Of a stretch of 64,000 nucleotides of DNA, positions 20,501 through 63,501 are shown one piece after another. Each line of letters opens with the position of its first letter. The stretch's first letter is position 1. The translations under genes were made by a program, and so were the position numbers. This DNA is from Xiphias gladius. Lineage: Eukaryota; Chordata; Actinopteri; Istiophoriformes; Xiphiidae. Location of the stretch: the NCBI RefSeq assembly GCF_016859285.1, contig NC_053411.1:4848316-4912315 (forward strand). The letters run 5' to 3'. Under the pieces are notes generated by a model, which ran no database searches, was not told the DNA's origin, and saw only the letters and a list, made by a program, of their open reading frames with translations.

Positions 20501-23500
20501 TGGGTAATGAGCTCGACGAGTCAGTTTGTCCTGATGTGGTCTGACACTGTACTTTCAAATTATATTTCCCATATACCCTGTGCTGCTTCTTCACACTGAC
20601 TTGTGCCAAAATGGATTTGCACCAGACTAGTAAGCACGGTGGGCTTATTTTGAGGTGTTTTTCAAATTTTCAGATAATTTTAACCAGTACTGGCTCTTAC
20701 TCACCAGCATGAGCTGCAGGTTGAATAGTGGGTCAGTGGGATATGGAAAGGACAGCTTTGCAGTGCTACAGTGCCAAGGGAGTTGCTGCTGGTGTAGTGC
20801 TGTTATTCAGAGCAGCCCGATAAGAGCTTGCAGGAATGTCTAGCATTGACTGATGGCTTTAATACTGTCCTTTGAGCATGGAGTGTGCAGTGTTCATCTC
20901 ACTGGCTCACTCTTTTATGCTTCCCCTTTTTCTTTGTCAACATTTTTTCATCTTTTCTCTGTATCTCAATCTGGCATGCCTTCTTTGTTTCATCCTATGT
21001 TTCCTCTGAAACAGAAGACTGGCATAGGTGTTTAACATTATTAAGTAATGAATAAAGCTATAGATTAAATGCATGTTGATGTGTAGTATAGATTCTTTCC
21101 ACCTAAGAGATGACATCAAATTGTTTTTAAATTGACAGCTAATTCTACATCTTTGTATGGATTGAATACAGCAGTTCTGCACTGTATATATCTTGGCCGG
21201 ATGGTGTTTTTTTTTTTTTTTCCCAATTCACATTGGTTATCTGAGCTGTCAGACTGACTTGTGTCTGATATTTCTGCCTATATTATTCAAAATTGGTATC
21301 TCTTGTGCTGTTTTCAGTTCTACGTGATTGAATACGCAGCATGCGACGCCACATACAATGAGATTGTCACATCAGAACGCATCAGGCCCCTCAACCCCAA
21401 CAGCCCTTCCTCTCGGAACTCCTTCCATAAAGTCCCCATCCCTGTCCCAGAAGACTTGAGGGACATGTGAGTGTCTTTACATTGTCAGGTTACATACTGT
21501 AGATAGTTCTTCAATTGATATATAATAAAATTGGCATAGAAATTTTGAATTTCGGTGTTCTTGGGTATATGAATGTATGATTTTACATGTCTAAACACAT
21601 TTCTTTGAATGTTAAGTTCTCACATCACAAGTTGTTTCAGTGAGCAGTGTTGTTATAATGGCCCACTGCTGCCAAATGAATAACGAGGCTGACTCTCCTG
21701 TGGATTGTTTTCTTATCGACAGCTGTGCAAATGACAACATTCACAAAGACTTCAGGAAAGCTATCGGAGCCAACTGCATCTTCTACAGTGCCCAAACACA
21801 CGAACTCATCGTGCTGGTTAGTACTTCGAATACACACTTGTGCTTGGTATCACTTCACGAGCAAGTTAATGTCCTTATTAGATAGCCACAGATGAGGAAA
21901 TAATATAAATGAGCTATAGTAACTCAAACAGTAACGTAAAAATCAGAAAGGTTCAAATGAACTGTATGTTAGGGATATTCTGAGTATTCCTAAAATATCG
22001 TTAGGTCTGTACATTTTAATCTAAATCATGACACATACATTCACCAAACACTTTATTAGGGACACAATATTAATATTGGGTAGGGTCACCTTTTGCTCTC
22101 AAAACAACCACAGTTCTTGGTCCATGGATTCCACAAGGTGTTGGAAATTTTCCTTTGAGATTCTTGTCCATGTTGACATGATTGCATCACATCATTACTG
22201 CAGATTTGTCAGATGCACATTCATGCTGCCGATCTCCTCCATACCAAAGGTGTTCCTTTAGACTCAGATCCGGTGACTGGGGAGGCCACTGAAGTTTACT
22301 GAACTCATTGTCATGTTCATGAAACCAGTTTGTGGCAACTTTTTTTGCCTTGTGACATGATGCTTTTTAATGCTGAAAGTAGCCATTACAGGATGGTGAA
22401 CTGTGGCCCTAAAGGGATGCACATGGTCAGCAAAAAATACTCAGATAGGCTGTGGCATTCAATGATAATTGATTGGTATTAAGGAGCTTAAAGTGCCAAG
22501 AAAACAATCCCCACACTTTTACACCACCTCCAGCCTGGACTGTTGACACAAGGCAGGTTGAGTCCATGGATTCATCTACGTGCCTCAGCAGAAACCCAGA
22601 TGCTTCAGACCAGGCTATGTTTTTCCAGTCTTCACCTGTCCAGTTTTGGTGAGCCTGTGCCCACTGCAGCCTCAGATTTCTGTTCTTGGCTGACAGTAGT
22701 GGAACCCGACGTGGTCCTCTGCTGTTGTGGCCCATCCACCTCAAGGTTCAACGTGTTGTACATTCTGAGATTCTTTTCTGCTCACCACAGTTGTAAAGAG
22801 TGGTTATCTGTAGCCTTTCTGTCAGCTGCAACCAGTCTGGCCATTTTCCTCTGACCTCTCTCATCAACAAGGTGTTTCCGTCTGCAGAACTGCCGCTTGC
22901 TGGATGTTTTTTGGCACCATTCTGAGTAAACTCTAGAGACTGTTGTGAGTGAAAATACCAGGAAATCAGCCATTTCAGAAATACTCAAACCGGCCCATCT
23001 GGCACCAACAATCATGCCATGGTCAGAGTCAATGAGATCACAATTTTCCCTGACACATATCTGCATGATTTTATGCATTTCAGCCACATAATTGGCTGAT
23101 TGCATGAGTAGACAGGTGTACAAGTGTTCCTAATAAAGTGCTTGATGAGTATATCTTACTTCCCCTTCCTGTCTCTCTTCAGTGCTTTTAGATAAAACAT
23201 ACAATGTCAAAATTCTGAATCAACATTTGAACAACTTTGTCTCTGGTACTCCTCTGATTGACAAACACTAACTATTGACAATATGAATGCAATAATTATG
23301 TTCTGAAGTAACTTGTAAGTTGTAACGTAACCCCTTCTTTATAATCTTCACAGTCTACAAATGAAACCACAGTAAAGCGTGCAACTCTTCTGAGTGACAT
23401 GCATTTTCGCAGCATCCGTACCAAGCTTATGCTAATGTCCCGCAACGAAGAAGCCACCAAACATTTGGAGGTAAACATACTCTTTTGATACACATGAACA

Positions 23501-36841: not shown

Positions 36842-37471
36842 CACATTCATACCTGTGCGCATATCGTCGTCCGGTATTTACCGTTTGTCATAGTCGGAGT
36901 TTCGACATCGTCGTGGCGCCGTCCACAAGCTGTGAGTACTATCACTTTCATGGGTTTCTCTGTTCGCTCCCGTTGCTTTTTATCATCACTGTAGTTTTAC
37001 ACGTCTTCATACGGGACTGCATGTGGCCTAAACTGAGTTTTATTTGGTTCTGTCACGGGTGACAAAATGGCTAACGCCTGGCACTTAACGTTAGCTTGCT
37101 AATAGACTCCATTCAAATGGCACGGGCCTAGCTAGCAGCTCACTGGCCAGGAAGTACAAACACTGAAACTTCTTCGACTCCAGACTTATCTGCGTCAGCC
37201 GTATTCGAAGTCGTACAGTTTTTACACTTGTAGCAAAATTTCAACGATAGTAAGAGTGAAGGTAAGCATGCCATTTGCTGAAAGATTTGAATTATGCTTC
37301 GCTCTGGCGGTCCTTGGAGCTGCAGTCGCCTCGATTACAAGCTTTCTATTTCCTGATAATGACGTTATCTAGTGACCATGTGCTCCCACTGGTTACTTTC
37401 TGCTACTACACGGTGGCCTGTGTTAACTCACCCCGTCTTTACCCCTTTCAGAGAAGTACACTGGAGCAACA

Positions 37472-38607
37472 ATGGTGAAGATTTTCATCGGGAACCTGTC
37501 TCAGCACGCTGGGAAGGATGAGGTTGAGGCTCTGTTTACTCAGTATGGCACAGTGACAGAATGTGCCAAGTACAAAAACTATGCTTTTGTCCATATGGAA
37601 GACCGCAAGTCTGCCACGAAAGCCATCCGTGAGCTCCATCTCTATAAGCTGAACGGTAGGCCCATCAATGTGGAGCTCAGCAGAGGGAAGAACCAGGGCC
37701 CTGTGAAGCTCCACATTGCCAATGTAGAGAAGGGAGCTGACGACGAGCTCCGTGCTCTCTTTGAAGAGTACGGCACAGTCGACGAGTGTTCCATTGTCAA
37801 GGACTTTGCCTTTGTGCACATGGCCAATTCTGATGAGGCCATGGATGCCATCAAGGGACTGGACAACACTGAGTTTCAAGGTAAGTGAATTTGATATTCC
37901 CCTATTACGAATGAAGGGATTTGAAGTTTGTGGGGTTTCCTCATTGTTAGTATTTAGCCTTTTAGATTTGAGGGACAATGTTTTTCTCTCTCTCAGGGAA
38001 GCGCATACATGTTCAGATATCAAAAAGCAGACCCAGAGGGGCACCCGAGGAGGAGGCCTATCCACCTCCGCCAGGCAGAGGAGGCTATTTTCCTCCTCAC
38101 TACCCAGGGGAGAGACCCGAGCCTCCTTACAGAGGCCGCATGTCCGCTTTCCCGCCTCCACCTCCGCCCCCCCCTCCCCCGAGACGAGCACCTTATCCCG
38201 ACCGCGGCTATGGCGAGCGAGAGGGCTACGGGGTGGTCGATTACTATGAGAAATACAGAGCCCGTCCTTACAGCACCCCAGGCTATGATGACAGGCGTGC
38301 CATCCCCCCGCCTCCGCCTCCTCCCTCGGCACTGGTTAGAGAACGTCTCGGAATGGGGTCCCTTGACCCGTATGAGCGGCGCCCGCTCCCCCATCCTCCT
38401 CCGTCCTACATGCCTAGGGACCGAAGCCCTATCGGACGAGCCCCCATTCCGCCTGCCCCGTCAGCTGGTAACGGGTACTCCTATGAACGGTCCCGGCTCT
38501 CTCCAATGTCCAGACCGCCGATGTATGCAGCCCCCCCCCCCAGGGAATCCTTTCCAGAGAGATTGCCTCCGCCGCCGCCGCCGCCACCTCGCTATGCAGG
38601 CTATTAG
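37472..38607 (+). CDS. rbm4: RBM4-like RNA-binding protein, copy 1
   Basis: RBM4-type proteins regulate alternative splicing and translation. Two coding exons, 37472-37880 and 37997-38607, give 339 residues. RRM1 (about residues 1-70) has RNP2 KIFIGN and RNP1 [11 protein letters not shown]2 (about 78-145) has LHIANV and KDFAFVHM and ends [20 protein letters not shown], the RBM4 signature. The CCHC zinc knuckle that follows RRM2 in mammalian RBM4 is missing. Instead there is a tail rich in proline, arginine and tyrosine with [33 protein letters not shown] and [15 protein letters not shown] and YERxRLSP also occur in the related RBM14, so the exact ortholog name is uncertain. A 5' UTR intron (36932-37451) and a 3' UTR intron (38630 to about 38906) flank the coding part. 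The paralogous copy 2 lies 8 kb downstream on the same strand. Confidence 0.9.
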
Positions 38608-44217: not shown

Positions 44218-44766
44218 TCATAAATGACACAGAGTCTCATCATTCTCCAGGGGAACAAGTGCTCTGAGCTCCATGACAGGTGTCACACTAGGCACACACA
44301 TGCATGTCTCCCTGGACGGAGGCATCTCCAGCACCTCAAACTCCACCTCAAAGCTCCCCATGGCCTCGCCGGACTCACGGGTGATCAGCATTTCGTACTC
44401 TCCAAAGCGGAGCAGGGCCTTGTCGGGGAGATCCATCCTCTCCAGGTAGCCCAGAGCTGAGCTGTTCACTGAAAGTCGTCCCCTCTGGCTCAGGTTCTGG
44501 ATGGTGAACAGCATGTCCGGGCTCTGGGCTGTGCGATAGGCGTGGAGGGCCAGCTGTTTCCGGGACACCCGGGGGTCGACCAGGGCGTAGGTGCAGGCCT
44601 GGGCATCCCGGCCTAACCTGAGAGGGACATCTGCTGGGTGACTGCTCCTCTTCCCCAGAGGAAGCATCCCGTAGAGGCCCTTGCAACTCTGCTGGGGGTG
44701 GTAAAGCTTGATGTGTAGACGAGTCAGGAAATCCTCCTCTGTCTCCATTGTCTGGGACACATTCAT
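44218..44766 (-). CDS. tifa: TRAF-interacting protein with FHA domain (TIFA)
   Basis: TIFA is the cytoplasmic adaptor that oligomerises after Thr9 phosphorylation (ALPK1 pathway) and activates TRAF6 and NF-kB. A single coding exon gives 182 residues (human 184). The ATG at 44766 starts MNVSQTMETEEDFL, placing a threonine at residue 9 in an acidic TEE context as in human TIFA. The FHA domain follows: LRLGRDAQACTYALVDPRVS with the GR phosphate-binding arginine, then NLSQRGRLSVNSSALGYLER and LLRFGEYEMLITRESGE. The C-terminus has VPLENDE, matching the PxExx(acidic/aromatic) TRAF6-binding pattern seen in human TIFA as PTEMDE. A 5' non-coding exon probably ends at 44957 (CATACAG|GTAAGG). The gene lies on the opposite strand between the two RBM4-like genes. 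TIFAB is excluded by the Thr9 region and the TRAF6 motif. Confidence 0.93.
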   Translation of the reverse strand: MNVSQTMETEEDFLTRLHIKLYHPQQSCKGLYGMLPLGKRSSHPADVPLRLGRDAQACTYALVDPRVSRKQLALHAYRTAQSPDMLFTIQNLSQRGRLSVNSSALGYLERMDLPDKALLRFGEYEMLITRESGEAMGSFEVEFEVLEMPPSRETCMCVPSVTPVMELRALVPLENDETLCHL

Positions 44767-45119
44767 CACGAAAAAAAGCCCCTGATGAACTCAGTAAGGG
44801 GTTAACCTTCTGTGACGAAAGGCTCTTGAGACAGGAAAAAAAACACACACACACACACGTTAGGAATGCAGTGAAATGGGGAGACTTACCAGTCAAACAA
44901 AAGTAAAGTAACACAACAAATATATAAATTCCTGCTGTTAAATGTTTGTGCCTTACCTGTATGTTGATCTTTACAAAGTGGAGATACAGATAAGGTGTTT
45001 TTACACAGCCCTCAGAGGAGACTAACTGACGGTGTTGCTGCTGAGGACGGATGAAGACAGCGGCACTCGCGCTGCCTGCTCCCTCAACACCCAGTAATCA
45101 CGATGCTGCTTTCAAGTGC

Positions 45120-45900: not shown

Positions 45901-46569
45901 GTGACCCGCGAAAAGCGCAGGCGAAGAAGAAGGGAAAAAAAGGCAGGCTTGAAGGCAAAAACTAAACGGAAGCTGGCCAGAGGAAGTCTCTCGAAAGAGG
46001 TTTGAATTCTTCGTTGAGGCCGACCGGTAAAAAGGTAACATTGAATGTACAAGCCGGAGATTTGATAATTACAATTCAACGCAGTTTAAATTCTTGAAAT
46101 ACCTACTAACCTTTGCCTGTTCGCCAGCTCGCTGCTTTGCGCTTAGACTGCGGCGCTTTGTGTAATAGCGTGGCTTGTCCGGCGAGCTAACCGTAGCTAG
46201 CAGCTAGCACAGGCAAATTTGCAAAAGCAAGACCTGGAGTTGCGTTTAGACTTGGCTTATTATCCAGGTATTACAGCAAAAGGAATACAAATGTTCTAAT
46301 GTTAAAATAGGTTTGATAAAGTAGGTGAAAATTAGTTGACTTGCGGCGTTAGTTAAACCGACGTCAGCCATTTTGCACTGAATGGCCCTGCTTAATTCGC
46401 AGCTGTGACTATAGTATAAGAGCAAAGATTTTAGACATATTTCTGTCCATACTCTAAAATTGTATCCACAAGGTAAACGCCATTAATTTTAATGAAAAGT
46501 TTCGTTTTCTTTGTCCACCCCTATATTTCCCGTTTTCTCTAAATTGCCTTGGGACAGGTCTTTTTAACA

Positions 46570-47725
46570 ATGGTGAAAATTTTTGTGGGAAATCTGCCCC
46601 GAGAGGCAGATCAGGATGAAATCAAGGCACTCTTTACTCAGTACGGCACAGTCACAGAATGTGCCATCATCAAGAACTACGCCTTCGTCCACATGGATGA
46701 CCGCAAGGCCGCCACCAAAGCCATCAAAAGTCTGCACCTCTACAAGCTCCACGGCACACCGATCAACGTGGAGGCCAGCCACGGGAAGAACCAGGGCTCG
46801 GTCAAACTGCATGTAGCGAATGTAGAGAAGGGATCTGACGAAGAGCTCCGTGCTCTCTTTGAAGAGTACGGCACAGTCACAGAGTGTGCTGTTGTCAAAA
46901 ATTTTGCTTTTGTACATATGTCCAACTCAGATGAGGCCATGGATGCCATCAAGGGACTGGACAACACTGAGTTTCAAGGTAAGAAAGGGCCATCGTTTGA
47001 AACAACTTAAAGTAGTTGTGAAGTCGGTCTGTGTGCGCCTATATTGAACCTGATTATGTAATATGTATTTTGTTTAATTTTTTTTGAAATTAGGCAAACG
47101 CATCCACGTCCAGATTTCCAAGAGCCGTCCCAGACATGATGAACGGGATGACTACCCCCCTCCTCCCCCAGACAGAGGTGGCTACTGGCCCCCACGCTAT
47201 CCAGGAGAGAGGCCCGAGCCTCCCCCACCCAGCTACATGAGAGGCCGCCTTGGCCATATACCCCCAGGTTACCCAGCCCCTCCTCTGCCGCCCCCTCCCC
47301 CTAGACGAGCTGTTTATCCCGACCGTCCCTATGACGGTGAGAGGGACAGATACGGCGTGGTAGATTATTATGAGAAGTACAGAGCACGTCCGTATGGCAT
47401 GCCCTCCTACGAGGATCAACGTGCTGGCGCCCCTCCCCCTCCCCCTCCCCCCTCTGCCGTCGTACGAGACCGTCTTATGAACTCGTCGCTCGACCCGTAT
47501 GAGCGTCGGCCCCTTCCACCTCCTCCGTCCTCGTTCTATCCCCGAGATCGCAGTCCCCTCAGGAGAGCGCCTAGCACGCCAATGCCCCCCGCCAGTAATG
47601 GCTACTCCTACGAGCGCTCCCGACTTTCTCCGGTTTCCCGGGTCCCGGCATATGGAGTTCCACGCGCCAGGGACCCCTACGCAGAACGGCTGCCCCCCCC
47701 ACCGCCGGCACGCTACGCTTATTAA
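46570..47725 (+). CDS. rbm4: RBM4-like RNA-binding protein, copy 2
   Basis: Tandem paralog of the gene at 37472. Exons 46570-46978 and 47094-47725 give 346 residues; the first coding exon is 409 bp in both copies and the intron sits at the same codon (GAGTTTCAAG|GTAAG). RRM1 has KIFVGN and [11 protein letters not shown]2 has LHVANV and KNFAFVHM. It starts [20 protein letters not shown], closer to mammalian RBM4 (MVKLFIGNLPREA) than copy 1. The tail again lacks a CCHC knuckle and carries [42 protein letters not shown] and [13 protein letters not shown], ending RYAY. The ATG at 46570 is chosen because it aligns with copy 1; an in-frame upstream extension to 46549 lies across the acceptor (GGGACAG, ending 46557) and is not part of the mRNA. 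A 3' UTR intron starts at 47747. Confidence 0.92.
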
Positions 47726-51142: not shown

Positions 51143-51307
51143 CAGGTGTTGTCAGACCACAGTGTGCTGTCTCTTCTGTCAAACAAGTGATCTGAACCTC
51201 GCAAAACACTTTGACTGCTGCAGACCTCCACCTAACTCTCACTATAAGGGACCGTGGACAACCCATCAAATGAACCTTACTGGCTCCTTGTACATCAAAC
51301 ACCAATC
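51143..51307 (-). repeat. receptor-cluster 3' flank block, copy 1 (behind gene A)
   Basis: Starts GTTGTCAGACCACAGTGTGC and ends near TACATCAAACACCAATC on the plus strand. The same pattern recurs at 55228, 60928, 61101 and 61791. It lies about 95 bp beyond the predicted polyadenylation signal of receptor A (51401-51406), so it is genomic 3' flank rather than coding. Confidence 0.75.
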
Positions 51308-51553
51308 AGAAGCTAGATTTAGTCTGTCAGACAGGAAAATACAGAAACAGATGAGAATTACAATACACCAAATTATTGCAATTCAGAATAAAGCAAGATT
51401 TTTATTAAAGTAGATTTTTGGAGAAAGCGGTGGCAACAAAGATGGTGGCAAGGGATAGTAACTCTTCCTACACACAACTTGCAGAAAATCCACAAGTTTC
51501 TATGAAAAAGCATCAGTCCCACTCCGAGCTGCGGTTCCAGTGGTTTCCTGAGT

Positions 51554-52510
51554 CTATCTGGTGGCAGTGGAACAACGTTCGGCTCCAGCTCTCTCTCTGT
51601 GATGCAGGCCTTCTGCTCCTTTTTGCTTTTGGAGGGAAACTTACTTTTGTGGACTGTGTTCTTCTTTATGAGCTATATGACAGAGACAAATGCCCAGTCA
51701 ACTCATTAATTCAGCATCATTGTCCTTTAATGTTACTGTTAATAGCATTTTGGCACAAAGTAAGTTTGGGATTATTCCATCCTAGTGACACAAATATAAG
51801 CAAACTAAACCAAAGATAGATTCAGTAGCTTTCAAAAGTACCTGTCGGAAGTTTCCTGCATTTAATGGCCAGACCAATGGTGACCATTACAAGGAAAACA
51901 GTCACAACACCAAGGATCACACTTGTCAGCTTTGTTATTCCATCAGGCTCTTCTACAGGAGAGATCAGGAAACTAAACTCTAGCTCCCTTAGTGACCAAC
52001 ATTAAAGTCTCAAAGAAGTGAACTGAAAGCAGACTCTCATTATTTCCCGTTTTACTTTGAAAAATGACTCCAATGCGTGTCGGTTCGTTGTTTTACTTCC
52101 TGTCTTTCTTTTCCCCCGCTTCATTGATTGTCTGTCCCGTTGTGTTCACCTATTCCCTATTACTCCTGCCTCCCTTGCACAGTATATGTAAGTCTCTTGT
52201 GTTTCCTCCACTACAGCCCAGAGTCAGATAAAGCCACATCCTTCATTTGGAGAAAGAGAGTAGAGATGTTGGATTTCATTTCAATTTTTCCCTCCTGAGC
52301 TCCACTACAGAATAAAGCAGGGTCAATGAAGCTGTAGCTTGAGGAAATGCAGCGGGTCTTGGTTCTGTTGAACAGTCTGAACCAGATTATCTGAGTGGGA
52401 GAACTGGAAAAGTTGGAGCACAGCAGTGTGACTTCTTCACCAGACTGGACCTCCAAATGATAATAAAACAAGTTTTTGAGGCTTATCCTGTTTTTGCACT
52501 GATCACACAA
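51554..52510 (-). pseudogene. Ig V-set receptor A, broken copy
   Basis: Partial member of the minus-strand receptor family. The V exon (about 52460-52217) reads [39 protein letters not shown] and VALSDSGL, then stops where relatives read YFCGF, so the second canonical cysteine is lost. The transmembrane exon is intact at 51952-51842 (111 bp): EPDGITKLTSVILG then VVTVFLVMVTIGLAIKCRK. In the tail region (about 51680-51554) the short linker exon is fused to the middle of the tail exon, removing the ITIM-coding part, and a 2-bp insertion shifts the frame before the normal end. No leader exon was found; a Tc1 element lies directly upstream at about 52690. Together this supports a pseudogene. An AATAAA (51401-51406) survives downstream. 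Confidence 0.8.
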
Positions 52511-52689
52511 GCACCTCTAAAAGATTAATATTAAAACATGGTATTACAAAGATTACAGTCATGCAGGCTGAGACTGGATGTGAAGCACTCTCCTGAATTG
52601 TTCCATCACGTTTTCTACTTATTTTAATACCGTGCACCTGTAATATCCTCCAATAAAGGTTTAGATTCCTTTAAACAAATCACAGAAAT

Positions 52690-53390
52690 GTATGATTTAG
52701 GGAAACATGATTTCCTCAGATATCTTTAATTGAGACATGACTTGCTTATTCTACAAAGATCTGCTAAAATGGCCTCGACAAAAGGATTGGTACCCCCTTA
52801 GAGGTGGTGATGAATAAGTGGATTGTAGTGATATTTGAAGCAGATTATTGTCTTCAGTCAATATCACCATATTTCCAATCTTTTAATCAGTCATTCAGTC
52901 TGTTTAAATGGGGGAAAGTCCTCCTTTGGCACTCTGTAATCATTGTGTGCACCACAGTGAACATGGACAAGGGAAGAAAAGAAGAGAGTTGTCTGAGGAG
53001 TTAAGGAAAGGAAGTAATTGCCAGGCATGGTTAAGGTAAAGGCTACAAGACCATCTCCAAGCAGCTTGTTGTTCCTGACACCATAGCTGCCAATATTATT
53101 AAGAAGTTTAAGGTTCAGAGAATGGTAGCCAACCTCCCTGGACGAGACTGCAAGAGGGAAGATTGAGATTGAGACCAGATTGAACAGAAGAACAGTTCGA
53201 ATGGTGGAAAAATAACCAAGGAAAAGATACAAAAGATACGTCAATACAACAGTAAGTGTCAACAGTGTTCAGTCGCACCGTAAGGGGCTTTCCGGATGAA
53301 AGTGGACTCCATGGAAGAAGACCCAGGAAGAAACTCTTTTGAAAGAGAAACATAAAAAAGCCTGACTGATGTTCAAGTGCATGTTGACAC
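52690..53390 (+). mobile_element. 5' part of a Tc1-like DNA transposon
   Basis: Plus-strand sequence matches the order of a common fish Tc1 element. GGATTGGTACCCCCTTAG (52784-52801) is followed by ATTGTGTGCACCACAGTGAA (52942-52961), GGCTACAAGACCATCTCCAA, ATTATTAAGAAGTTTAAGG, GTAGCCAACCTCCCTGGACG and AAACATAAAAAAGCC near 53350. Translated, the centre is the helix-turn-helix region of the transposase (YKTISKQL, IIKKFK). Frames are interrupted and the catalytic half is not recognisable beyond about 53390, so it is a truncated, dead copy. It sits at the 5' side of broken receptor A. Ends approximate. Confidence 0.8.
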
Positions 53391-53714
53391 AACATGTCAA
53401 TACATATCACAGTGGAGATGGATGGGGACTGCACTCGCTGCAGTTTTGCTGTGGTCTGTCATGTCTTCAGTATGTACAGTCTGGAGCAGTGTGAATGGCT
53501 TCATAGGAGGATGTGCAAGTGTCACGCTACGTTCTCTCACACTTGTAGAAGAGATGATTCGTAAACAACATGGAGTTCACTAATAATACCTTTAGAAAGC
53601 AGATATGAGGAGATTGTTAAGAGTCTTACTGTTTTTGCCAACAACGGTAACTTGTATACAATGTCAACACAGCATGAATGAAACCTCTTATATTCTGATG
53701 CGTCCAGAGTTTTG

Positions 53715-53800
53715 TCAAATGGTGGCACTGGAGGACAGGTCAGCGTCCATCAAAGATACTGGGCTTGATCCTCTGGGGACCGTGAACATCTAATTTCACA
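53715..53800 (+). repeat. fragment of a teleost interspersed repeat (probable)
   Basis: CATCAAAGATACTGGGCTTG followed by ATCCTCTGGGGACCGTGAAC resembles a widespread fish repeat whose usual form reads CCTCTGGGGACCATGAATG. The family name is not known to me; the match is from memory. Confidence 0.35.
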
Positions 53801-54287
53801 ACAAAACATTTCAGAACAAAATGGCCTTTCGTTTTTCAAATGACCTTTGTTCACTGGCTGATGAAGGAACAACTACGGTCTAAACTGGAGGGTGATTTTT
53901 AGGCAAAATATGAACACAAAAACACAGTAATAAAGTGCAAGAGAGCTTAATACACTCTGAAGTCTGTATACAAGCCCTCATGTTATCCAGTGACAGTGGT
54001 GCAGATAAATTAGATAAATCAAAAAATTGATTTATTTGGACTGACATGTAAAGTAACTCCTCCACCCATAGAGGCACACATATTATATGAAGTCCTGCAG
54101 AAGATTTTCCTCAATCTGAAGGTGTGGGGGCTGCCTTCAAAGGAACATTTCCTGAAAAACAAGCTGCTGCTGAGTGAGCTTCACGAAGACTGATCCACTG
54201 ACACATTTGCGTGGATGGAGCAGTCACACATTTAACTCAGTAACATACAAACAGTGTTTTCACAATGGACATTTGCAGCTGGAGCAG

Positions 54288-54296
<9 letters not shown>

Positions 54297-54347
<51 letters not shown>
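54297..54347. repeat. (CA)n microsatellite, about 25 units
   Basis: Uninterrupted CA tract after a short CT run. Confidence 0.9.
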
Positions 54348-54349
<2 letters not shown>

Positions 54350-55227
54350 CTTGACTATCTTCACTGAAGCATTTTGTGAGAGGAGCAGTCACATTTGAAC
54401 TTTTTCTGAAGGTTACATTGTTCAGTTTTTATCGACACTGGCTCAGGGAAGTGTTTCCAATATTTGTTAAACCAATTTGTGAACGACTGTAAGTGTAACG
54501 TAATTCAACTGCACAACAAGTTCTACAACTTAAATGACCACATTGGTTGCTTGTCCCCACCCTTGGTTCTTTGTCGCCTTGGTAACAATAATAAACACGC
54601 GGTTAAGGTTGTGGAAGTAGGGTTTATTACAGGCTGATGCATTAGACTGCATTAGTATTAGAATGCAGTAGTAATGCAAGATGTAAATATAAATAAAATG
54701 TAGAATTGTTTTGCATGTTCTGGTGCTTTTTATGTTAGTGGACCTTAGGTCACTGAATGGAAACAAATGCTTATTTGTATTAGCAATGAAAGCAGCATTA
54801 ATTGAAACGACAGGGCGGATATTAGTAAAGGTATCAAAAGAATATGAGTTCATTCCACTAGACTGATATTAGTAAAACAGATAAAAACCTCTGCTCTTTG
54901 ATACAGCAAGGCTGGGTTTTGTTGTACTGAACAGTTTCACTATTGTTCATTTGATGCAAATGCATTTAGCCCTCTGTTGTGTGTGGTTATGATGCAGGGG
55001 GCTGAAGGCCGAGCTCACTCATGACACATACAGACACCTCACTGATACAGACAGTGCTGTCTGTATTCAGTTTCCCCATCGGTGCATTTTATGTTTTTCT
55101 AAAACCTTCTGTTTAGATGTGGCCTGTTTTGCCAGCTTGACGGAAGCCAGTACTGCGCTGTTCAATGCTTCATTTCAGGTTTTACTCATAAAGCTTTGAG
55201 TTAACAGAGCTCAGGATTTTCCCCCCC

Positions 55228-55386
55228 AGGTGCTGTCAGACCACACTGTACGGTCTCTTCCTGTCAAACAAGTGATGTGAACCTCACACAAGACTCTCAC
55301 TGCTGCAGACCTCCACCTCTTGCTCTCAGAGACTCTGATCGGTCGTCAGTGTCTTTATCGGCTCCTCCTCCATCAAACACCAATCG
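55228..55386 (-). repeat. receptor-cluster 3' flank block, copy 2
   Basis: Reads GGTGCTGTCAGACCACACTG at the start and CTCCTCCATCAAACACCAAT at the end, collinear with 51143-51307. It is 1.35 kb beyond the stop of gene B, further than the roughly 235-250 bp seen for copies A and D. Confidence 0.75.
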
Positions 55387-55724
55387 TATTCTTAAGACAA
55401 ACATGTTATTGACTACGCCTGTGCTCTATCTCCTGTGATAAAGGTCTGTTGTACACTATAACAGAGCAGAGCCATCGTTGATGTGAGTAGTCACACCTGT
55501 GCTTTTCCAGCAGTGACGGCTGAAATGTCTGCTGTGAAAAAGGCCCAGACCGGAGGCAAATATCATGAGTCCAGTAAAATCAGTTCAGTGAACAACACTG
55601 GAAACCTGTTGCAGCAGGTGAGGCTGTGCTCTGTACGCTAAGAGTAACATCAGGTCGAAAACCTTGTATGTCTGTCAGTCAGGCAAGTCTTCCCACTCAC
55701 CATCTGACTCCCTGCGCACACACA

Positions 55725-55764
<40 letters not shown>
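55725..55764. repeat. (AC)20 microsatellite
   Basis: Uninterrupted tract between receptor copies. Confidence 0.9.
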
Positions 55765-55768
<4 letters not shown>

Positions 55769-56633
55769 ATGTAGCTTACAGCAGTTGCTCTTAGCAGTCA
55801 TTTTTTGCATTACTAATACTATTAATGTTAACAAGCCACTTGCAAGCATGTAGCTCAGCACTACATAGCGATAACCAAACAATCTATAGTTGGCCTGATG
55901 TCAGACTTGGCTCGGTTCCCCATCCTGCTTTCAATCCAAAGACTTCCCAAAATCTTTCATCCTTTCTTCCTAAAGTTTAAGCCGTCCACAGAAGCTGTCA
56001 CTGAAAAGCCAGTTTTTGTCAGAGTATTTGCATTCGTATGCGTTTACTTTATATGTATTTATATATGGGACCATGACTGTGGGTGTTTAGAAAGAGATGA
56101 ATCTATCATTACGGGAACGCTCAGTGATAACATTCAACCCTCAATATCTTCCCACAGAGGAAAAAAAACCCCCAGACTTATCTCCTGGTGTCATTCTTTG
56201 GATAGAACAACACCTTGTTGTTTGTGGTTATGATGCATAGAGTTGAGGGCCAGTCTTCCTGTGGATGCTTTAATTTTCAGCTTTGTTACCACAGTGGAAA
56301 ATGCCAGTATGCGAGCACTGATAGTTGTTACCAACAGTGGATGGCTTCTGTATCTTTGTATTTTTCATCCAGATATCTGACATATAAATATAGACACATA
56401 GGTGATTAAATTAACACTTACTTTACTTTTTATCCTTCTTTGTGTTTTCCACAAACTACTCATTTAAGAGGCTGATGCTTTTGTGTACTTATCAGACTGT
56501 GGTCAGACACTTTTGGCCTAACAGAGCTTTTCTCTCAGATACAGATGTATAATGAAATGATCATGACTTTACTTACTTTGAGTAAGATTGTAAACTCAAG
56601 CATGGATTGCAAATGTTTCGTGTACATAGAATC

Positions 56634-56639
56634 TTTATT
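56634..56639 (-). promoter_or_regulatory. polyadenylation signal, receptor B
   Basis: TTTATT on the plus strand (AATAAA on the gene strand), about 100 bp past the stop; receptor D has the same CTTTATTA context at the same distance. Confidence 0.65.
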
Positions 56640-56739
56640 ACACTTTTTTTTTTACAGTGATGGTAACTCCTCCGGTCCACCAACCTCCAAAACCCCAAAA
56701 GCAGATTGATATGACAAAGCATCAGTTATACTCCTGAGT

Positions 56740-57967
56740 CTATCTGGTGGCAGCGTACACAACATTTGGCTCCAGCTCTCTCTCTGATGCAGTCTTAAGG
56801 TTTCTTTTTGGTTTTGGATGGAAACTTAGAGCCACGTAGTTCAGGTCCTCTGTGCCCACATTCTGTAAATGAAAATATCTAGTCATTCATTTCACACAGC
56901 TGAGTACGTGAGAAAACAGAAAACCGTTACTTTAAAACTGAACTGAAGCAGAGAACGTATAAAAACGACTTTGATCAATCATAATCTAAGGCTGGATTGT
57001 GATTACCTCACTGGGTTGTGGATTCTGCCCCCCTTTATGTGCTAAATGACAGAAAACAGTACATCTGGTCAGTTCACCTTTTAAAAATATTGCTCTCCAT
57101 ACTTTTTAAGTTTAATTTCAGTTGTGCAACCTAAATAAAAACATAGAATTACCTGTGTGGCGTTTCCTGATTTTGAAAACCAGAACAATGACAACTATAA
57201 TGAGGAAAATAATTAGACCTCCCAGGATCACACTCGTCGGATTTGTTAGTTCATCAGACTCTTCTACAAGAAAGACAATTAAATTTAGCTTTTTGTATCA
57301 TATTCTACCTCTTGTGGGTTGAGATCAGTTCTTCTTTTGACAGTGACTAAAAAAGGCACATTATCAGCTTCTTTCCAAGACTTTACAACAATCTTACCAT
57401 GAACCTTTAAATATGTTGCACTGTAAAATACTGGGAGTTCTCTGGGGTTACTATTTCTGCGAAAGCCACACAAATAGAGTCCAGAGTCAGATAAATCCAC
57501 ATGTTTGATCTTCAGGAAGATGGTAGTGGTGTTGGATGTCATGTTAAATCTTTCATTGCAAAATCCATCACAGAACGAAGCAGAGGAATCAGAGCTGAAC
57601 ATGGAGGAGATGCAGCTGGCGCTGGGCTCGTTGCCCAGCCTGAACCAGGATATGTGAGAGACTATAGCAGAAAAGTTGGTACACAGCAGTGTGACTTCTT
57701 CACCAGACTGGACCTCCACAGTGTGAAACTCAGAAACTGAGGCAGAGATCCAGCCTGAAACAAACAACAAGTAATTTGTTCATAAACTTGTGTTTCAACA
57801 GGAACCAAACAGTGCATGTAAATGATCTTATTAATGAACAGTTTGTAAATTTCAGTTCCGGCAGATTACTGTACCGAAGAAAGGTTAGCAATCGCCGTAT
57901 CGAGAAAAAATGGGAAGGTATACTTACTGAAGGTGCAGAGTAAAGCTGTTACCAAGCTGACGTTCAT
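56740..57967 (-). CDS. single-V-domain Ig receptor B with ITIM-like tail, complete
   Basis: Five exons join in frame: 57967-57928 (leader), 57754-57398 (V domain), 57263-57153 (transmembrane), 57041-57007 (35-bp linker), 56862-56740 (tail and stop). The product is 221 residues. Signal peptide MNVSLVTALLCTFS. V-set domain from WISASVSEFHTVEVQ, with cysteines in VTLLC and DSGLYLC, the tryptophan in HISWFRL, and additional cysteines in SASCIS, SFC and GFC. Transmembrane segment ILGGLIIFLIIVVIVLVF has no charged residue, so no ITAM-adaptor pairing is suggested. The tail has DLNYVALSF (ITIM pattern LxYxxL) and ends NVVYAATR. It is likely a type I surface receptor of leukocytes, probably inhibitory, but the family name (NITR, CD300-like or other) cannot be fixed from sequence alone. 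All introns are GT-AG and phase 1 or codon-aligned as in copy D. Confidence 0.85.
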
Positions 57968-57999
57968 TGTTGTGCGTACAGCAGCACTGCACCACTGCA

Positions 58000-58685
58000 A
58001 CGTCAGTAACTGAACTGTGCTCCAGTAAGAGTGGTCTGGGCGCACAGAGGCGGGATTTTCTTTTGTTGATCCGGCCGCCCAGAATGACAATCTAAATGCT
58101 TTCAACAAAGAGGGCTGCAAAATACTAGCTTCAAGAAGAACAGCAGACGTTCATCATCTTGTTGGAAAACACTTTAGATAATGTAGGTAATGTTTCGGCA
58201 AAAGTGATTTAGCAGTCAGTTTGTGTGAGTCTATGCAGCATAAGGAGGTGTGATCTTTGATGTTGTTTGCCTTCATCAACTCTTCTTTTCCTATATCAGC
58301 ATACCTTATACAGTAGTCCTATTAATGACATATCCAACAAATGTTTTCACTGAAAGCTCATTTATTAATTGGAGTAGCCGTTGAAACATCACTGCATAGA
58401 GATTTAACCCCTACTGTGGGCATTATGTTGAGGACGACACACAGCCATAATGAGCTTCTCTGCTGAGTTCGACATTTTCTACATCAGGACGCCTCGGAGG
58501 TGTCTCGTCATGCTTGTATATACCATGGCCACTCACCACAGGAACACTCAGAAGCTGTTCTTATGTTGTCACAGACGTTCTGGAAGTTTTTATGGAGTCC
58601 ATTGACGCCAGGGGTAGCCAAGGTTCATCTGTAAGAGTTGAAAAGCTGGTAACGTCGCATGACACAGACTGTTGTGACCTCCAGT
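58000..58685. other. spacer upstream of receptor B up to the assembly gap
   Basis: Holds the presumed promoter and 5' flank of receptor B. No exon or repeat of the receptor unit was recognised. Confidence 0.5.
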
Positions 58686-59185
58686 NNNNNNNNNNNNNNN
58701 NNNNNNNNNNNNNNNNNNNNNNNNNNNNNNNNNNNNNNNNNNNNNNNNNNNNNNNNNNNNNNNNNNNNNNNNNNNNNNNNNNNNNNNNNNNNNNNNNNNN
58801 NNNNNNNNNNNNNNNNNNNNNNNNNNNNNNNNNNNNNNNNNNNNNNNNNNNNNNNNNNNNNNNNNNNNNNNNNNNNNNNNNNNNNNNNNNNNNNNNNNNN
58901 NNNNNNNNNNNNNNNNNNNNNNNNNNNNNNNNNNNNNNNNNNNNNNNNNNNNNNNNNNNNNNNNNNNNNNNNNNNNNNNNNNNNNNNNNNNNNNNNNNNN
59001 NNNNNNNNNNNNNNNNNNNNNNNNNNNNNNNNNNNNNNNNNNNNNNNNNNNNNNNNNNNNNNNNNNNNNNNNNNNNNNNNNNNNNNNNNNNNNNNNNNNN
59101 NNNNNNNNNNNNNNNNNNNNNNNNNNNNNNNNNNNNNNNNNNNNNNNNNNNNNNNNNNNNNNNNNNNNNNNNNNNNNNNNNNNNN
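58686..59185. other. assembly gap (500 N)
   Basis: Exactly 500 unspecified bases, a round number that suggests a gap of unknown true size. Open frames reported through it are meaningless. It lies at the 3' side of receptor C. Confidence 1.
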
Positions 59186-59334
59186 CTGTTTTAAAGCAAC
59201 ATGAAGGTAAACAATAGCTCTAGCAAGAATGTAATAAGTAACAAAATTTCATTTACCATGAGTTAAACAGACAATAACACAATTAGAAATGAAGGGGAGC
59301 GTAATTCAGTTCCTATACAATTTTTTTTTTTTCC

Positions 59335-59714
59335 CTGCTTGCAGAATGAAGCGTGGTTAACAGAATTGTACACGTAGGAAATGCAGCTGGGCTGGTTTCT
59401 GTCGACCAGTCTTAACCAGATTATCTGAGTAGGAGAATTGGAAAAGTTCGAGCACAGCAGTGTGACTTCCTCACCAGGCTGGACATCCACAGTCTGAGGC
59501 TCAGACACTGAGACGCAGATCCAGCCTGTAACAAAGATTTCACTGTCAGCCGATAATGTAACAAACCCAGAACAAAAGTAGTAGCAACTAAACTCAGTTT
59601 TGCTGGTCCTTACATTAGACTTAAAGTAGCCATTAAGTACATTTTGAGAGACATTCATTGTCAGTACTTACTGAGGCTGGAGAGAAGTAAAGCTGGTGTC
59701 ATAGTAAAGCACAT
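59335..59714 (-). pseudogene. Ig V-set receptor C, partial copy next to the gap
   Basis: Leader exon 59714-59672 (MCFTMTPALLLSSLS, GTAAGTAC donor) and the first part of a V exon from 59525: [40 protein letters not shown], then QPSCISYVY and HASFC. Homology ends at about 59335 at a poly-A run on the gene strand, before the DSGLYFC segment; transmembrane and tail exons are not seen. The missing exons could partly lie in the gap, but the V exon itself is cut before the gap, so the copy is most likely non-functional. Confidence 0.75.
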
Positions 59715-59719
59715 CTTTG

Positions 59720-60920
59720 TGCGTATGAATGTCTGAGCCTCAGGAAGTAGGTTTCATTAAAGAGAAAGGTGGGGTTTTTTTCTGAGTATAGACAACTGAG
59801 AGGCACGTCTTTTTTCTGGAGCACACGATTGACCTGTGCGCCCATGCTTTCAGTCTTTGTCCTAAGGCAGGTGGACCACATTCTGAATGCAGATTAAATT
59901 CAGATTGATCTTCTTATGAACTCCTGGTTAAACAGCCAACAAGCATATGTCGAAAATGCCGGAAGGGGTAAGAAAGTCAGTAATAGTCGCAATAACATTT
60001 ATCTAAATTTTCAGCTGCCTTTGTATCAAACAGGCTAGAGACACACCTTTATTCCTAATTTCCCCCACCTCCACCTTTTTCATTTGATCTGTTGGTGCGT
60101 AAAACGTCCTTTTATTTTCTGACTTGCTATACTTGTAATTTGCTGTTCAGGCTTTTTGTCTTAATGCATACTCAAATTCCCTCCATGTTGATAAATTTAG
60201 GAGAGCCTACATTTCCACAGCACTAATTCTGTCAGTACATCAACAGAATCATGCCATACTCTGTTCCTATGAGTTTGCCCTTTGTCTTTTGTCCTTTCTT
60301 TCTAATAATTTCAAGCTGGTTCTACTTTGCCATTTTGGGTATTGTGCTTCCACCTGGCCTTTGACAATTATAATGGCTGCTAAATTTGATGAGCCTCTTG
60401 CTGTATTACCTTCTTGAAGACTCAGTTGTTTCTGTTCAGAAAGACTCAGCTGCTTTTGGAATCACCAAATGGAAGCCTGAGTGTGTTGTCCAAACACTAA
60501 TGGGAAACTCTCATACTCTAATTTGAGGACCTTAGCAATGTAAATTGTGCTTTAAATGGAGTCTAATTTGCCCTATACAATTAAATCCTGATTTCTTGCT
60601 GGATCACCAGGGAGACACGTGTTCCAGAAAGCACATAGATGCAATCTGCCTGGCCGGACATGAAGCATGATAACGGCTTCACTTGACTGTAGCCATATTT
60701 CAAATCGGATCAAAACAGACTGCCATACAAGTAGTTATTAGGCTTTTACGGAATACCTCATCACTACAAAGATGTTACACACTGGTATCTGCTCCTGTCA
60801 GCATATCTAACTAGGGACAAATACAGTCTTGTGGAAACATTTACTGCATTAGTATATCTTTTATCCTAAGTCTTAATACAAATGTAGGTTAAACAAATGC
60901 AGTCTTACGACGCATGAGAG
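59720..60920. other. spacer upstream of receptor C
   Basis: 1.2 kb without a recognisable exon, repeat unit or promoter motif. Confidence 0.5.
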
Positions 60921-60927
60921 CTCAGCT

Positions 60928-60990
60928 GTGCTCAGACCACACTGTGCTGTCCACAACTCCTCCCTCCAGTGCAGACTCTCCCTGAAGTAG
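60928..60990 (-). repeat. receptor-cluster 3' flank block, copy 3 (short)
   Basis: GTGCTCAGACCACACTGTGC then GCAGACTCTCCCTG, collinear with the left part of the other blocks. A TTTATT (61055-61060) lies just to its right, in the position where a receptor polyadenylation signal would be, but no receptor exons follow. Confidence 0.6.
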
Positions 60991-61100
60991 AGGCCCATTA
61001 TTTTATCAACGTTACACAGGAAATTGAGCCAGTTTTCATTGTTTCAGATCAGGTTTTATTAACCAGAGTTTGACTGGAGATGCCTCATGAGTTTCACCTC

Positions 61101-61233
61101 AGTTGTCCTCAGATCGAGCTGTGATTTTCTGTCAAACAACTGGCGCGTCCTTCACTCACTCGCTTCCTCCCTCCTTGCAAGGACTCAGTATAAGGAATTG
61201 TATCATTAGTGGCTCCTCGTCCATCAAACCTCA
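61101..61233 (-). repeat. receptor-cluster 3' flank block, copy 4
   Basis: Contains TTTTCTGTCAAACAACTGG and, at its right end, GTGGCTCCTCGTCCATCAAAC, matching the ends of the blocks at 55228 and 51143. Confidence 0.6.
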
Positions 61234-61591
61234 GACGTGTTTTTTCCCCCCTGTAGATTATGATCAAAGACAAACCAAATTTTAAAGAATAGAGACTGAG
61301 AGCAAGAGAAATGCATGCAAGCATGTGATAAGCAAAAGTAAACACTAGCAAGAAAATAATATTTTTCCCTTAATACTGAGTTTTAGACAAATTCTATTTT
61401 AAACAAAGCGATCTTTAGGGCTGCAGACTCCCGGTCGACTGGTCAACTGGTCGAAAAACGGTAGGTTGTCTGCGTTAGGATGCTGCGTCAACTTTCATGT
61501 TTAACTCTTGAGGCTTTGAGTGTATAATTCCTAAATAGTTCAGGTGTTGCGATCACCAGTTGATATAGTTCTACTAGTGTGCACTCTTACT

Positions 61592-61630
61592 CTGTTTTCA
61601 AAGATTTGCTGTCTTTGAAAACAGCAAATC
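61592..61630. repeat. two overlapping perfect inverted repeats
   Basis: CTGTTTTCAAAGA (61592-61604) pairs with TCTTTGAAAACAG (61612-61624). GATTTGCTGT (61603-61612) pairs with ACAGCAAATC (61621-61630). The two hairpins share bases and exclude each other. They lie between receptor flank blocks, about 420 bp beyond the receptor D polyadenylation signal. Confidence 0.8.
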
Positions 61631-61790
61631 ATTTAATATTTGTGGTCATGGCTGAAGTCTTCCTGTTGTGACTTTATTTTTGACTAAATAAACCAGGGTG
61701 CTGGTTTATTCCGTTGTTATTTTTTTTCTTGACTTTGTCTTTTCAACAGTCTGTGTACAGAGGATCATATTATTTAGTCAAGAACAAGAG

Positions 61791-61927
61791 CTCAGACCAC
61801 AGTGTGCTGTCTCTTCCTGTGTTTCTCACTCCCCCTTCCCTCCCCCCGACAGACCATTTGACTCTCCCTATGAGTAAGTTTGACAGTCATCAGTGTCCTG
61901 TCTGGCTCGTCCTTATCAAGCATAAAA
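61791..61927 (-). repeat. receptor-cluster 3' flank block, copy 5 (behind gene D)
   Basis: CTCAGACCACAGTGTGCTGT then CTCTTCCTGTG, with TCAGTGTCCTGTCTGGCTCG near the right end. It is about 125 bp beyond the receptor D polyadenylation signal, the same arrangement as behind gene A. Confidence 0.7.
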
Positions 61928-62051
61928 TATGTCCTTGTTGCTCTCACATGAAGATCGGATGCAGACAATAAGAAAGACAGAGACTCTGTCCAAGAAAGTG
62001 AAAGACAGAAACATGAGCCAAAAAACGCCAACTCTCCACGTATACAGAAAC

Positions 62052-62057
62052 TTTATT
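62052..62057 (-). promoter_or_regulatory. polyadenylation signal, receptor D
   Basis: TTTATT on the plus strand, about 105 bp past the stop of receptor D, in the same CTTTATTA context as receptor B. Confidence 0.65.
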
Positions 62058-62158
62058 ACAAAAAATATTTTTGCCACAACCCACACAGAAAAGCAAAATA
62101 GCAGATTGAAGAAAACGTCATTAATACTCCGGGTTCCAGTTCCCGTTGCTTCCTGGGT

Positions 62159-63501
62159 CTATCTGCTGGCAGCAGAAATAACACGAGTCTCCACTTCTCT
62201 CTCTGATGCAGGCCTCCTGCTTCTTACTGTTTTTGGAAGGAGGCTCAGCGCTGCAGAGTTCAGGTCATCAGAGCCCAGGTTCTAAAAAAAAAGTATTTAG
62301 AGTCACACACTGCACAACACACTGTTGTTCAGAAACCAGCACAGAATCTGTAAGGCCCATGCTTCCTGGAGTAAAAATCCCTTTTTCAGGACATCCAAAC
62401 AGTTAGTATTTCAGTCGTTTAAGTTATGTTTCAGCATTTGAACGTGCTGCACGTGCGATTATGGTTCAGCATAGTTCAACAAGGGTTATTTTACCTGGTT
62501 TCTTTCAAGATGGAATTCTTCATTTGCAGATAAATGACAAAAGACGAAAAGTCTGATTAGTTAAGTATGACTGAGCAGATACAGTGTGGACTTGTCACAA
62601 CTTCATACAACGTACAACCCGATGTGTAACAAAAAATACATCAGCTTTACCTTTCTGAAGTTTCCTGATTTTAACGGCCAGAACAATGATGACTACAGTG
62701 AGGAAAACAGTCAGACCGGCCAGGATCACACTCATCAGGTTTGTCTCTCCATCAGGCATTTCTACAATAAAAATGATAGATTAAGCTCTGATTTTTCATC
62801 TGGTGGCTCTAGTCATGGTTAATGCTGAAATGACACGCCCTATCGTGACATGCACAAGGGAAAAATCTTAAGAGAGAAAAGGAGAACCTTACTTTCAGTC
62901 TCAAAATCCACTCCATCTTTAGATTCACTATTATCTGCAAAAATCAGGAGGACTAAATTATTTGACAAGTATTGCTTTCTTGTTTGTCTTAGTGCTGTTT
63001 TCACTCTACTGTGACAATAAATTCTAGATACATTATACTGTAAATATGATGAGGAAAAAGAAAACTCTGAAACAGGTTAGACTTAAATACAATCTTACCT
63101 TGAACATTTAAATGTATTGTATTATTAATGATTATGTTTTTGATGATGTAAAATCCACAGAAATACAGTCCTGAGTCCGATAAATCCACTCGCTTGATTT
63201 TAAGAAAGACAGTGGAGACGTCGGAGCTCATTTCAAATCCTTTTTTAAATCCATCGCAGAATGAAGCTTCGCTATCAGACCCGTACATAGAGGCGATACA
63301 GCTGACCGTTGTTTTCTCATCAAGTCTGGACCAAAATGTGTGAGTTGGCTCCTTGGAAATGTTAGAGCACAGCAGTGTGACTTCCTCACCAGGCTGGACC
63401 TCCAAAGTCTGAGACTGAGACACTGAGACAGAGATCCAGCCTGAAACAAAGAGCAGAGACAAGAAGAGAAATAAAGCTGTTATCGAGGTAAAGTTCCTCA
63501 T
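62159..63501 (-). CDS. single-V-domain Ig receptor D, complete, tail tyrosines lost
   Basis: Five exons join in frame: 63501-63099 (leader plus V domain), 62934-62893 (42-bp stalk), 62761-62651 (transmembrane), 62517-62495 (23-bp linker), 62281-62159 (tail and stop). The product is 233 residues. Signal peptide [21 protein letters not shown]-set domain from [20 protein letters not shown] with cysteines in VTLLC and DSGLYFC, and an extra pair in VSCIAS and ASFCDGF. Stalk [14 protein letters not shown] is absent from copy B. Transmembrane [19 protein letters not shown] is uncharged. In the tail, where B has LNYVAL and VVYAAT, D has LNSAAL and VISAAS, so both tyrosines are serine. Leader and V domain are in one exon, unlike B and C. 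Likely a type I surface receptor unable to signal through tail phosphotyrosine; ligand unknown. The 23-bp linker acceptor is the least certain boundary. Confidence 0.82.

Follow-up and report, generated by a model that had tools for sequence, protein, structure and literature searches.

To which receptor family does a tandem cluster of single-V immunoglobulin membrane receptors in the swordfish genome belong, and how have its copies come to differ? The cluster lies near the end of a 64-kb stretch of Xiphias gladius DNA (the window), and a sequence-only reading of that stretch had compared its layout with novel immune-type receptors (NITR) and CD300-like receptors without assigning it to either. 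Our preferred reading, to which we give a probability of roughly 0.63, is that the copies, named A to F, are V-only type I inhibitory receptors of the NITR locus that probably evolve by exon-level exchange.

Anatomy of the six copies

Four related copies on one strand had been reported, and we recovered all four, on the minus strand. The cluster does not end at about 63.5 kb as was thought, since two further copies on the same strand, E and F, lie just beyond the 64-kb window, and a NITR cluster comes next. The six copies comprise the following features (window numbering):

51560..52465, minus strand: copy A, pseudogene (tblastn and direct reading)
56732..56892, minus strand: tract common to B and the E/F tail exon, 92.6% nucleotide identity (blastn)
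56740..56862, minus strand: B tail exon, 123 bp, with the ITIM LNYVAL and NVVYAATR
57007..57041, minus strand: B linker exon, 35 bp
57153..57263, minus strand: B transmembrane exon, 111 bp, phase 1-1, uncharged transmembrane segment
57398..57754, minus strand: B V-set exon, 357 bp, with an extra C-x13-C pair (AG/GT; Pfam V-set 40.9 bits)
57928..57967, minus strand: B leader exon, 40 bp (ATG and GT donor)
59341..59714, minus strand: copy C, pseudogene (tblastn and direct reading)
62159..62281, minus strand: D tail exon, 123 bp, no tyrosine
62495..62517, minus strand: D linker exon, 23 bp, shifted acceptor (predicted)
62636..62650, minus strand: final run of D-E identity, at whose 3' end the amplified 5' part would give way to an older 3' part
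62651..62761, minus strand: D transmembrane exon, 111 bp
62893..62934, minus strand: D optional stalk exon, 42 bp, frame intact with or without it
63099..63501, minus strand: D fused leader and V exon, 403 bp
65699-67653, minus strand: copy E, open model, canonical splice sites, ITIM
69850-71804, minus strand: copy F, open model, canonical splice sites, ITIM

Gene models are open for B, D, E and F. In B, the five exons (40, 357, 111, 35 and 123 bp) have canonical splice sites and a frame that is open throughout, and the description of this copy as complete stands. Its tail carries the single consensus ITIM that had been noted, together with a second tyrosine in a non-consensus setting (VVYAAT); in E and F the ITIM reads LNYAAL. 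The Pfam V-set scan, which covered B, C and D, gave D 46.3 bits and C a score of 26, exactly the cut-off of 26. Pfam V-set domains in B and D, followed by transmembrane and tail exons, agree with the proposed single-V type I receptor, and the transmembrane segment is uncharged, as had been read.

D is complete only in part. Its linker has no AG where B and E use one, and the next AG yields an in-frame 23-bp exon; both tail tyrosines are lost, leaving the entire cytoplasmic part tyrosine-free. The supposed common set of leader, V, transmembrane, linker and tail exons holds for B and not for D, in which the linker acceptor has moved and a single exon encodes both the leader and the V domain. The stretch encoding the core of the D signal peptide is the counterpart of the polypyrimidine tract that precedes V in a copy on another contig (C109). 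The equal transmembrane (111-bp) and tail (123-bp) exons of B and D were correctly seen.

A and C are broken, as previously described. In A, the V region (52214-52465) has a degraded start and a TAG in place of the tyrosine before the second cysteine, and the tail remnant has lost its start and carries an indel further along; the 111-bp transmembrane exon that had been noted (51842-51952) is there, flanked by AG and GT. C retains only the leader (59672-59714) and the first half of V (59341-59526). A gap of 500 N lies near it (58686-59185), and the remainder of C is either lost or inside that gap.

The array holds a 4.15-kb repeat with 98.4% identity (blastn), and the near-identity of E and F may stem from an assembly duplication. 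Divergence among D, E and F is too small for a selection test.

Separate histories of the V domain and the tail

The V domains and tails of the cluster copies have separate histories. Between B and E, dS is 0.61 in V, 0.36 in the transmembrane exon and 0.033 in the tail, so that the tail exon of B is close to that of E/F (dS 0.03) despite distant V domains (dS 0.61), whereas between D and E it is 0.013 in V and 0.55 in the tail. This decoupling is significant for both pairs (Fisher p of 2.3e-5 for B/E and 7.6e-7 for D/E). Along D and E, identity is 96-100% per bin until 15 bp beyond the transmembrane exon and 74-79% thereafter.

We infer unequal crossover and gene conversion as the causes of these patterns, and the tract shared by B and the E/F tail exon is a putative conversion tract. 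By the same comparisons D is, to all appearances, a chimera with an E/F-type V on a cytoplasmic part without tyrosine; since D-type tails occur elsewhere in the genome (contigs C108 and C8 in a genome-wide tail search), its tail represents an older class. The earlier picture of birth-and-death evolution is right in that open and dead copies coexist, but it misses the movement of tails independently of V, the chimeric nature of D, and the continuation of the array to E, F and the NITR cluster.

A precedent for paired receptors arising via gene conversion is dog CEACAM1 and CEACAM28, for which the relevant passages of PMC2110893 describe a near-identical ligand-binding N domain, differing tails and regional conversion with a sharp boundary. 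The gene families are unrelated, and the alternative tail of the dog pair is reported there as ITAM-type, whereas that of D is free of tyrosine.

Possible kinship with NITR and other families

The array ends with F at 71.8 kb, only ~2.6 kb from the NITR cluster. The nearest NITR (74.4-75.5 kb in window numbering) is on the plus strand, its V and I lying in different frames; five NITRs of the V+I single-exon kind, in which both domains share a frame, follow on the minus strand at 83-121 kb, and one of these contains a stop. The chromosome also carries MEN1, at a distance of 3.3 Mb. This contiguity and MEN1 linkage fit the medaka chr18 NITR locus (PMC2442602). The sections of that paper on NITR of the medaka chr18 and zebrafish chr7 type use, as an operational criterion, a V-domain gene in a cluster containing I-domain NITR genes, and describe V-only members that group together. 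A-F adjoin I-domain NITR genes. Further likenesses to the NITR described in those sections are the N-terminal V domain (Pfam V-set in B and D; AlphaFold models with a V-like fold at low to moderate confidence, pLDDT 62.8 and 67.2), the uncharged transmembrane segment, a dual-tyrosine cytoplasmic exon including LxYxAL, and birth-and-death evolution. NITRs have either an ITIM or itim tail behind an uncharged transmembrane segment, or a charged segment; B, E and F have the first arrangement, while D departs from the NITR pattern in lacking a cytoplasmic tyrosine.

The group is unlike NITR in its extra C-x13-C pair, in the exchange of tails between copies, and in having neither an I domain nor a canonical FGxGT J motif. 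The introns exclude an I domain between V and the transmembrane exon in B (134 bp) and D (164 and 131 bp flanking the stalk exon), being too short to hold one. The V ends of B (FYSATYLKV) and D (NNTIHLNV) lack the FGxGT motif; their final residues resemble the J consensus, with the glycines absent. According to the same sections of PMC2442602, J or J-like sequence follows V in nearly all medaka NITRs, and the six-cysteine I domain occurs in many, not all, NITRs, its absence being allowed.

The extra cysteines and the missing I domain and J motif would also suit a separate, non-NITR teleost family that by chance lies beside the NITR cluster and has converged on the same tail plan, which we consider unlikely but the strongest of the alternatives. 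The extra cysteines, at V positions 48 and 62 (14 residues apart) and flanking a predicted C'-C'' hairpin, were found in 4/4 family V domains tested and in 0/20 others. In a V tree of 24 rows, including 4 of the family and 10 NITR, the family forms its own clade (99/99), whose sister is a single long-branch NITR (NITR23_L066 on C23) at 83/75; good support is confined to 5/21 inner branches, the NITR V domains do not form one clade, and this tree gives the group no position within NITR. Outside the family, TRAV-like genes on C15 gave the best matches in a V search (29-37% identity, best E 8.4e-6), ahead of the sole NITR match (30%, E 9.4e-4); by tblastn, the V of B shares 28-34% identity with the V domains of local NITRs. 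Against chance adjacency stand the direct contiguity of the two arrays, the published grouping of V-only NITRs and the shared tail plan, both tyrosines being present in 2/3 NITR tails compared. A search of two 8-kb loci aligned the B tail at E 0.001 with one NITR-type tail that contains a stop of its own, but no tail from the local (C12) NITR cluster is among the 11 matches up to E 10 in the genome-wide search, so that the tail likeness is one of plan rather than clear homology. Two local NITRs were read by eye: both enter the transmembrane exon in phase 1, and one also leaves it in phase 1, again as in B. The best PDB match of B is NITR11, but this does not discriminate, since the top 60 matches of D and of a local NITR V control hold no NITR. 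Overall, genomic position and the published V-only NITRs support the proposed likeness to NITR, and the tail plan does so more weakly. A-F are best read as a group at the NITR locus that is divergent, has V only and bears ITIMs, although sequence does not prove membership.

Kinship with CD300/pIgR-like (CMRF35-like) receptors, the other earlier suggestion, is highly improbable. The single V, transmembrane segment and ITIM agree in layout only. In CD300-type domains a second disulfide joins the C and C' strands, with a cysteine right after the core tryptophan; in the cluster V domains that residue is Phe, Ser or Thr, and the extra pair sits around the predicted C'-C'' hairpin instead. Rearranging TCR/Ig V segments carry an RSS heptamer after the last cysteine. 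We rejected this identity for the cluster, in which the V exon continues to a GT donor and the gene goes on to a transmembrane exon.

It is also improbable, and clearly more so than a separate family, that these are mostly decaying relics of which one or two copies matter, with D, E and F recent copies being lost. Such decay is seen in A and C, in the shifted linker acceptor and tyrosine-free tail of D, and on C109, where 8/8 V copies lack the B-strand cysteine, 5/8 have a frame break and 5/5 tail matches have a TAG; B, E and F argue against it, having remained open with canonical sites and an ITIM in their tails.

A proposed model of tail exchange and its meaning

We return to the preferred reading, V-only NITR-locus receptors evolving by exon-level exchange. 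We observe the anatomy of the copies, the decoupled V and tail histories and the contiguity with NITR; the steps that follow are what these suggest. A 4.15-kb unit would have been amplified in tandem, yielding the 5' part of D, the whole of E and the whole of F. Where the edge of this amplification met an older copy, in the intron immediately downstream of the transmembrane exon, D would have received an E/F-type V on a tyrosine-free tail. A separate short conversion may have replaced the tail exon of B with one of E/F type, or have run in the opposite direction. On leukocytes, B, E and F would each present one V domain carried by a short stalk, and would signal via one consensus ITIM (LNYxAL) and the second tail tyrosine, recruiting SH2 phosphatases. 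Catfish leukocyte immune-type receptors (LITR) belong to another Ig receptor family, have several Ig domains and map to a different locus. Their ITIM tails are described in the relevant part of PMC4810170 as recruiting SHP-1 and SHP-2, the mechanism we propose for this cluster. If expressed, D would bind the same ligand as E/F; it would be silent because its tail has no tyrosine, and might act as a decoy.

A bolder version, which we hold as speculative and a little less probable than a separate family, is that this is a tail-exchange locus. D and E/F would be a matched decoy and inhibitory pair for the same ligand, produced when crossover occurred in the intron that follows the transmembrane exon; ITIM exons would have spread by conversion, and the cysteines flanking the C'-C'' hairpin would be the hallmark of a novel class of V-only NITR with a covalently closed CDR2 hairpin.

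The preferred reading would give a set of single-V fish receptors with no assigned family an address, the NITR locus, and would supply a mechanism whereby ligand-binding and signalling modules can recombine. In clusters of this kind, a tree built from V domains alone would assign copies to the wrong signalling class. Should D be expressed together with E/F, this locus would be a compact example of how a silent partner arises for an inhibitory receptor.

Receptor copies within and beyond the window

The cluster of single-V immunoglobulin receptor genes proposed by the sequence-only reading holds, with corrections. Copies A, B, C and D lie on the minus strand, starting at 51.5 kb. B is complete, as described, with exons of 40/357/111/35/123 bp entered in phases 0-1-1-1-0, canonical splice sites, one open protein, an uncharged transmembrane (TM) segment and an ITIM in its tail; A and C are broken, as first claimed. 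D, also reported as complete, has an open frame but neither a separate leader exon nor the linker acceptor of B: whereas B and C keep a separate leader exon and intron, leader and V are fused in D into a single 403-bp exon, and the AG used in the linker of B and E is gone, the next AG giving a 23-bp exon in frame. Skipping of this exon is predicted to give a short tail and then a stop. An optional 42-bp stalk exon is present in D, as in E and F. Nor does the cluster end at D, since two further copies, E and F, follow in the adjoining sequence, with LNYAAL...NVVYAATR in both tails.

58686-59185: assembly run of exactly 500 N, close to copy C, probably an unsized gap
65699-67653 (window numbering, beyond its end), minus strand: copy E, open model, canonical sites
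69850-71804 (window numbering, beyond its end), minus strand: copy F, open model, canonical sites
C109, a 59-kb contig (loci L017-L019, L023-L027, L046): array with eight V copies and matched tails
C108 (L048): D-type tail exon; a TM remnant lies on the same contig
C8 (L049): D-type tail exon

A search of the whole genome (690.8 Mb) with the V domain of B gave at least 38 matches with E values no higher than 0.001; only the best candidates were scored, and all counts are lower bounds. Family matches fell in at least six places on C12, the contig on which the window occupies positions 4848316-4912315, and on C109, where at least eight V copies are spaced at 6.5-8.2 kb, plus six shorter fragments. 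The matches listed further include a family fragment on C110 and a broken family copy on C18; those from outside the family are TRAV-like genes on C15 (29-37%), a single V on C3 (32%), both named by eye, and one local novel immune-type receptor (NITR; 30%). The B-strand cysteine is missing from all eight C109 copies, a frameshift is common to four, a fifth (L023) diverges around the second cysteine, and the V domain is open throughout in three; all five matched tails carry a TAG. These copies look like a dead branch amplified as a repeat.

The leader intron is missing from D (window 63400-63501), E and F. The coding stretch for the hydrophobic core of the signal peptide in D, as in E and F, is the counterpart of the polypyrimidine tract 5' of V in the one C109 copy compared.

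Separate histories of outer domain and tail

The notable point of the cluster is tail exchange. A 4.15-kb unit is repeated at 98.4% in self-comparison, and the E/F pair could be an assembly duplication. In an alignment of D, E and F scored in 100-column bins, D matches E at 96-100% per bin from the TM exon upward, and F at 95-100% until the F copy of the unit ends. Identity between D and E then falls to 74% and 79% in the two bins containing the TM-exon 3' end and the linker exon, past which the two are mostly unalignable (tail exon 67-76%), whereas E and F remain 99-100% identical where D diverges. The last stretch shared by D and E covers the 15 bases of intron directly behind the TM exon. 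Synonymous divergence between D and E is 0.013 in V, 0 in TM and 0.55 in the tail; between B and E the pattern is reversed (0.61, 0.36 and 0.033), and B shares a tract of about 160 bp with the E/F tails. Fisher tests on synonymous differences, with rounded counts, gave p values of 7.6e-7 (D/E) and 2.3e-5 (B/E). Because purifying selection on the protein is a poor explanation for low synonymous divergence in one exon, we infer from the sequences that D arose by crossover, in whichever direction, and that the B tail probably reflects a short conversion with an E/F-type tail, again in either direction.

The D tail belongs to a second class, found on C108 and C8, where Asp occupies the position of the ITIM tyrosine, the last tyrosine being retained; in D both tail tyrosines are lost, leaving none in the cytoplasmic part. 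Beside the C108 and C8 tail exons there was no V match above noise.

Relationship to the NITRs

The genes before the array are as follows.

8780-9046, minus strand: flanking gene
23551-28644, plus strand: flanking gene
37436-37888, plus strand: flanking gene
44218-44790, minus strand: flanking gene
46552-47010, plus strand: flanking gene

Pfam matched six of the seven flanking frames scanned, naming HAUS4 and an FXR-type gene (FXR_C1) and, in the 14 kb before the receptors, two paired-RRM genes and one FHA-domain gene, which we take to be RBM4-like and TIFA-like, respectively. Open frames at 22427-23129 (minus strand) presumably represent a Tc1/mariner-type transposase remnant.

On the plus strand, the NITR closest to the array sits at 74.4-75.5 kb and carries V and I (a six-cysteine domain of many NITRs) in different frames. 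NITRs with both in one frame occupy 83 to 121 kb on the minus strand, where five matches cover V and I, one of them interrupted by a stop, and a sixth is incomplete; their I-domain ends are exemplified by CAVASCGHILFGNGT. In a second NITR cluster, on C23, V and I are in separate frames at all three places read. Menin has nine matches, all of them on C12 and 3.3 Mb from the array, and the array position is consistent with the NITR cluster of medaka chr18 and zebrafish chr7. One V domain of the C23 cluster (C23:8878439-8879489) carries FWIRLVSGT, like the FWxRL stretch of the receptor family.

Our preferred reading, tail exchange included, has a probability of about 0.63: the genes would be a divergent set of V-only receptors at the NITR locus, which narrows the 'unassigned family' of the sequence-only reading to that locus. 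By sequence they are candidate NITRs at most, the V domain of B being 28-34% identical to local NITRs. A separate receptor family, not derived from NITRs, is a less probable alternative, at perhaps one chance in four. In the V tree the receptor family forms a clade (99/99) with weak ties to other groups, the C23 gene above being the sole NITR to group with it, weakly. The canonical J motif and the I domain are both absent from the family. Among the 11 matches listed by a whole-genome tail search, none was an NITR tail of the C12 cluster. Of the three NITR tails compared, two have the dual-tyrosine plan, and the alignment of one NITR-type tail with that of B reached E 0.001. Structure searches fail to discriminate between families. 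The weighting reflects this weak tail evidence and a nearest NITR that is not of the single-exon type. On the side of the V-only NITR group, PMC2442602 describes V-only NITRs forming one group and counts all V-domain genes inside such clusters as NITR, and by that operational criterion the present group would be called NITR.

The family has a mark of its own, an extra cysteine pair (C-x13-C), found in every family V domain used for the tree, four in all (B, D, E and a single C109 copy), and in none of the 20 others; direct reading adds A, C and F. In the B model both residues flank the C'-C'' hairpin, which suggests that the pair may close CDR2, at a low model confidence (pLDDT there mostly under 50).

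Proposed working of the receptors

B, E and F would each place a V domain on a stalk, above an uncharged TM segment and one consensus ITIM. PMC4810170 describes ITIM tails of another fish receptor family that recruit SHP-1 and SHP-2, and links NITRs to NK-cell allorecognition; by analogy, the B/E/F group may work like those SHP-1/SHP-2-recruiting receptors. The V domain of D is 96.5% identical to that of E/F. With no tail tyrosine, D may merely be a decaying receptor. If instead it functions, D would be predicted from its sequence to bind the E/F ligand but not to signal through tyrosines. Dog CEACAM1/CEACAM28 offers a direct precedent for a common outer domain with differing tails, as in D and E/F: PMC2110893 describes one outer domain with two tails, produced by regional conversion.
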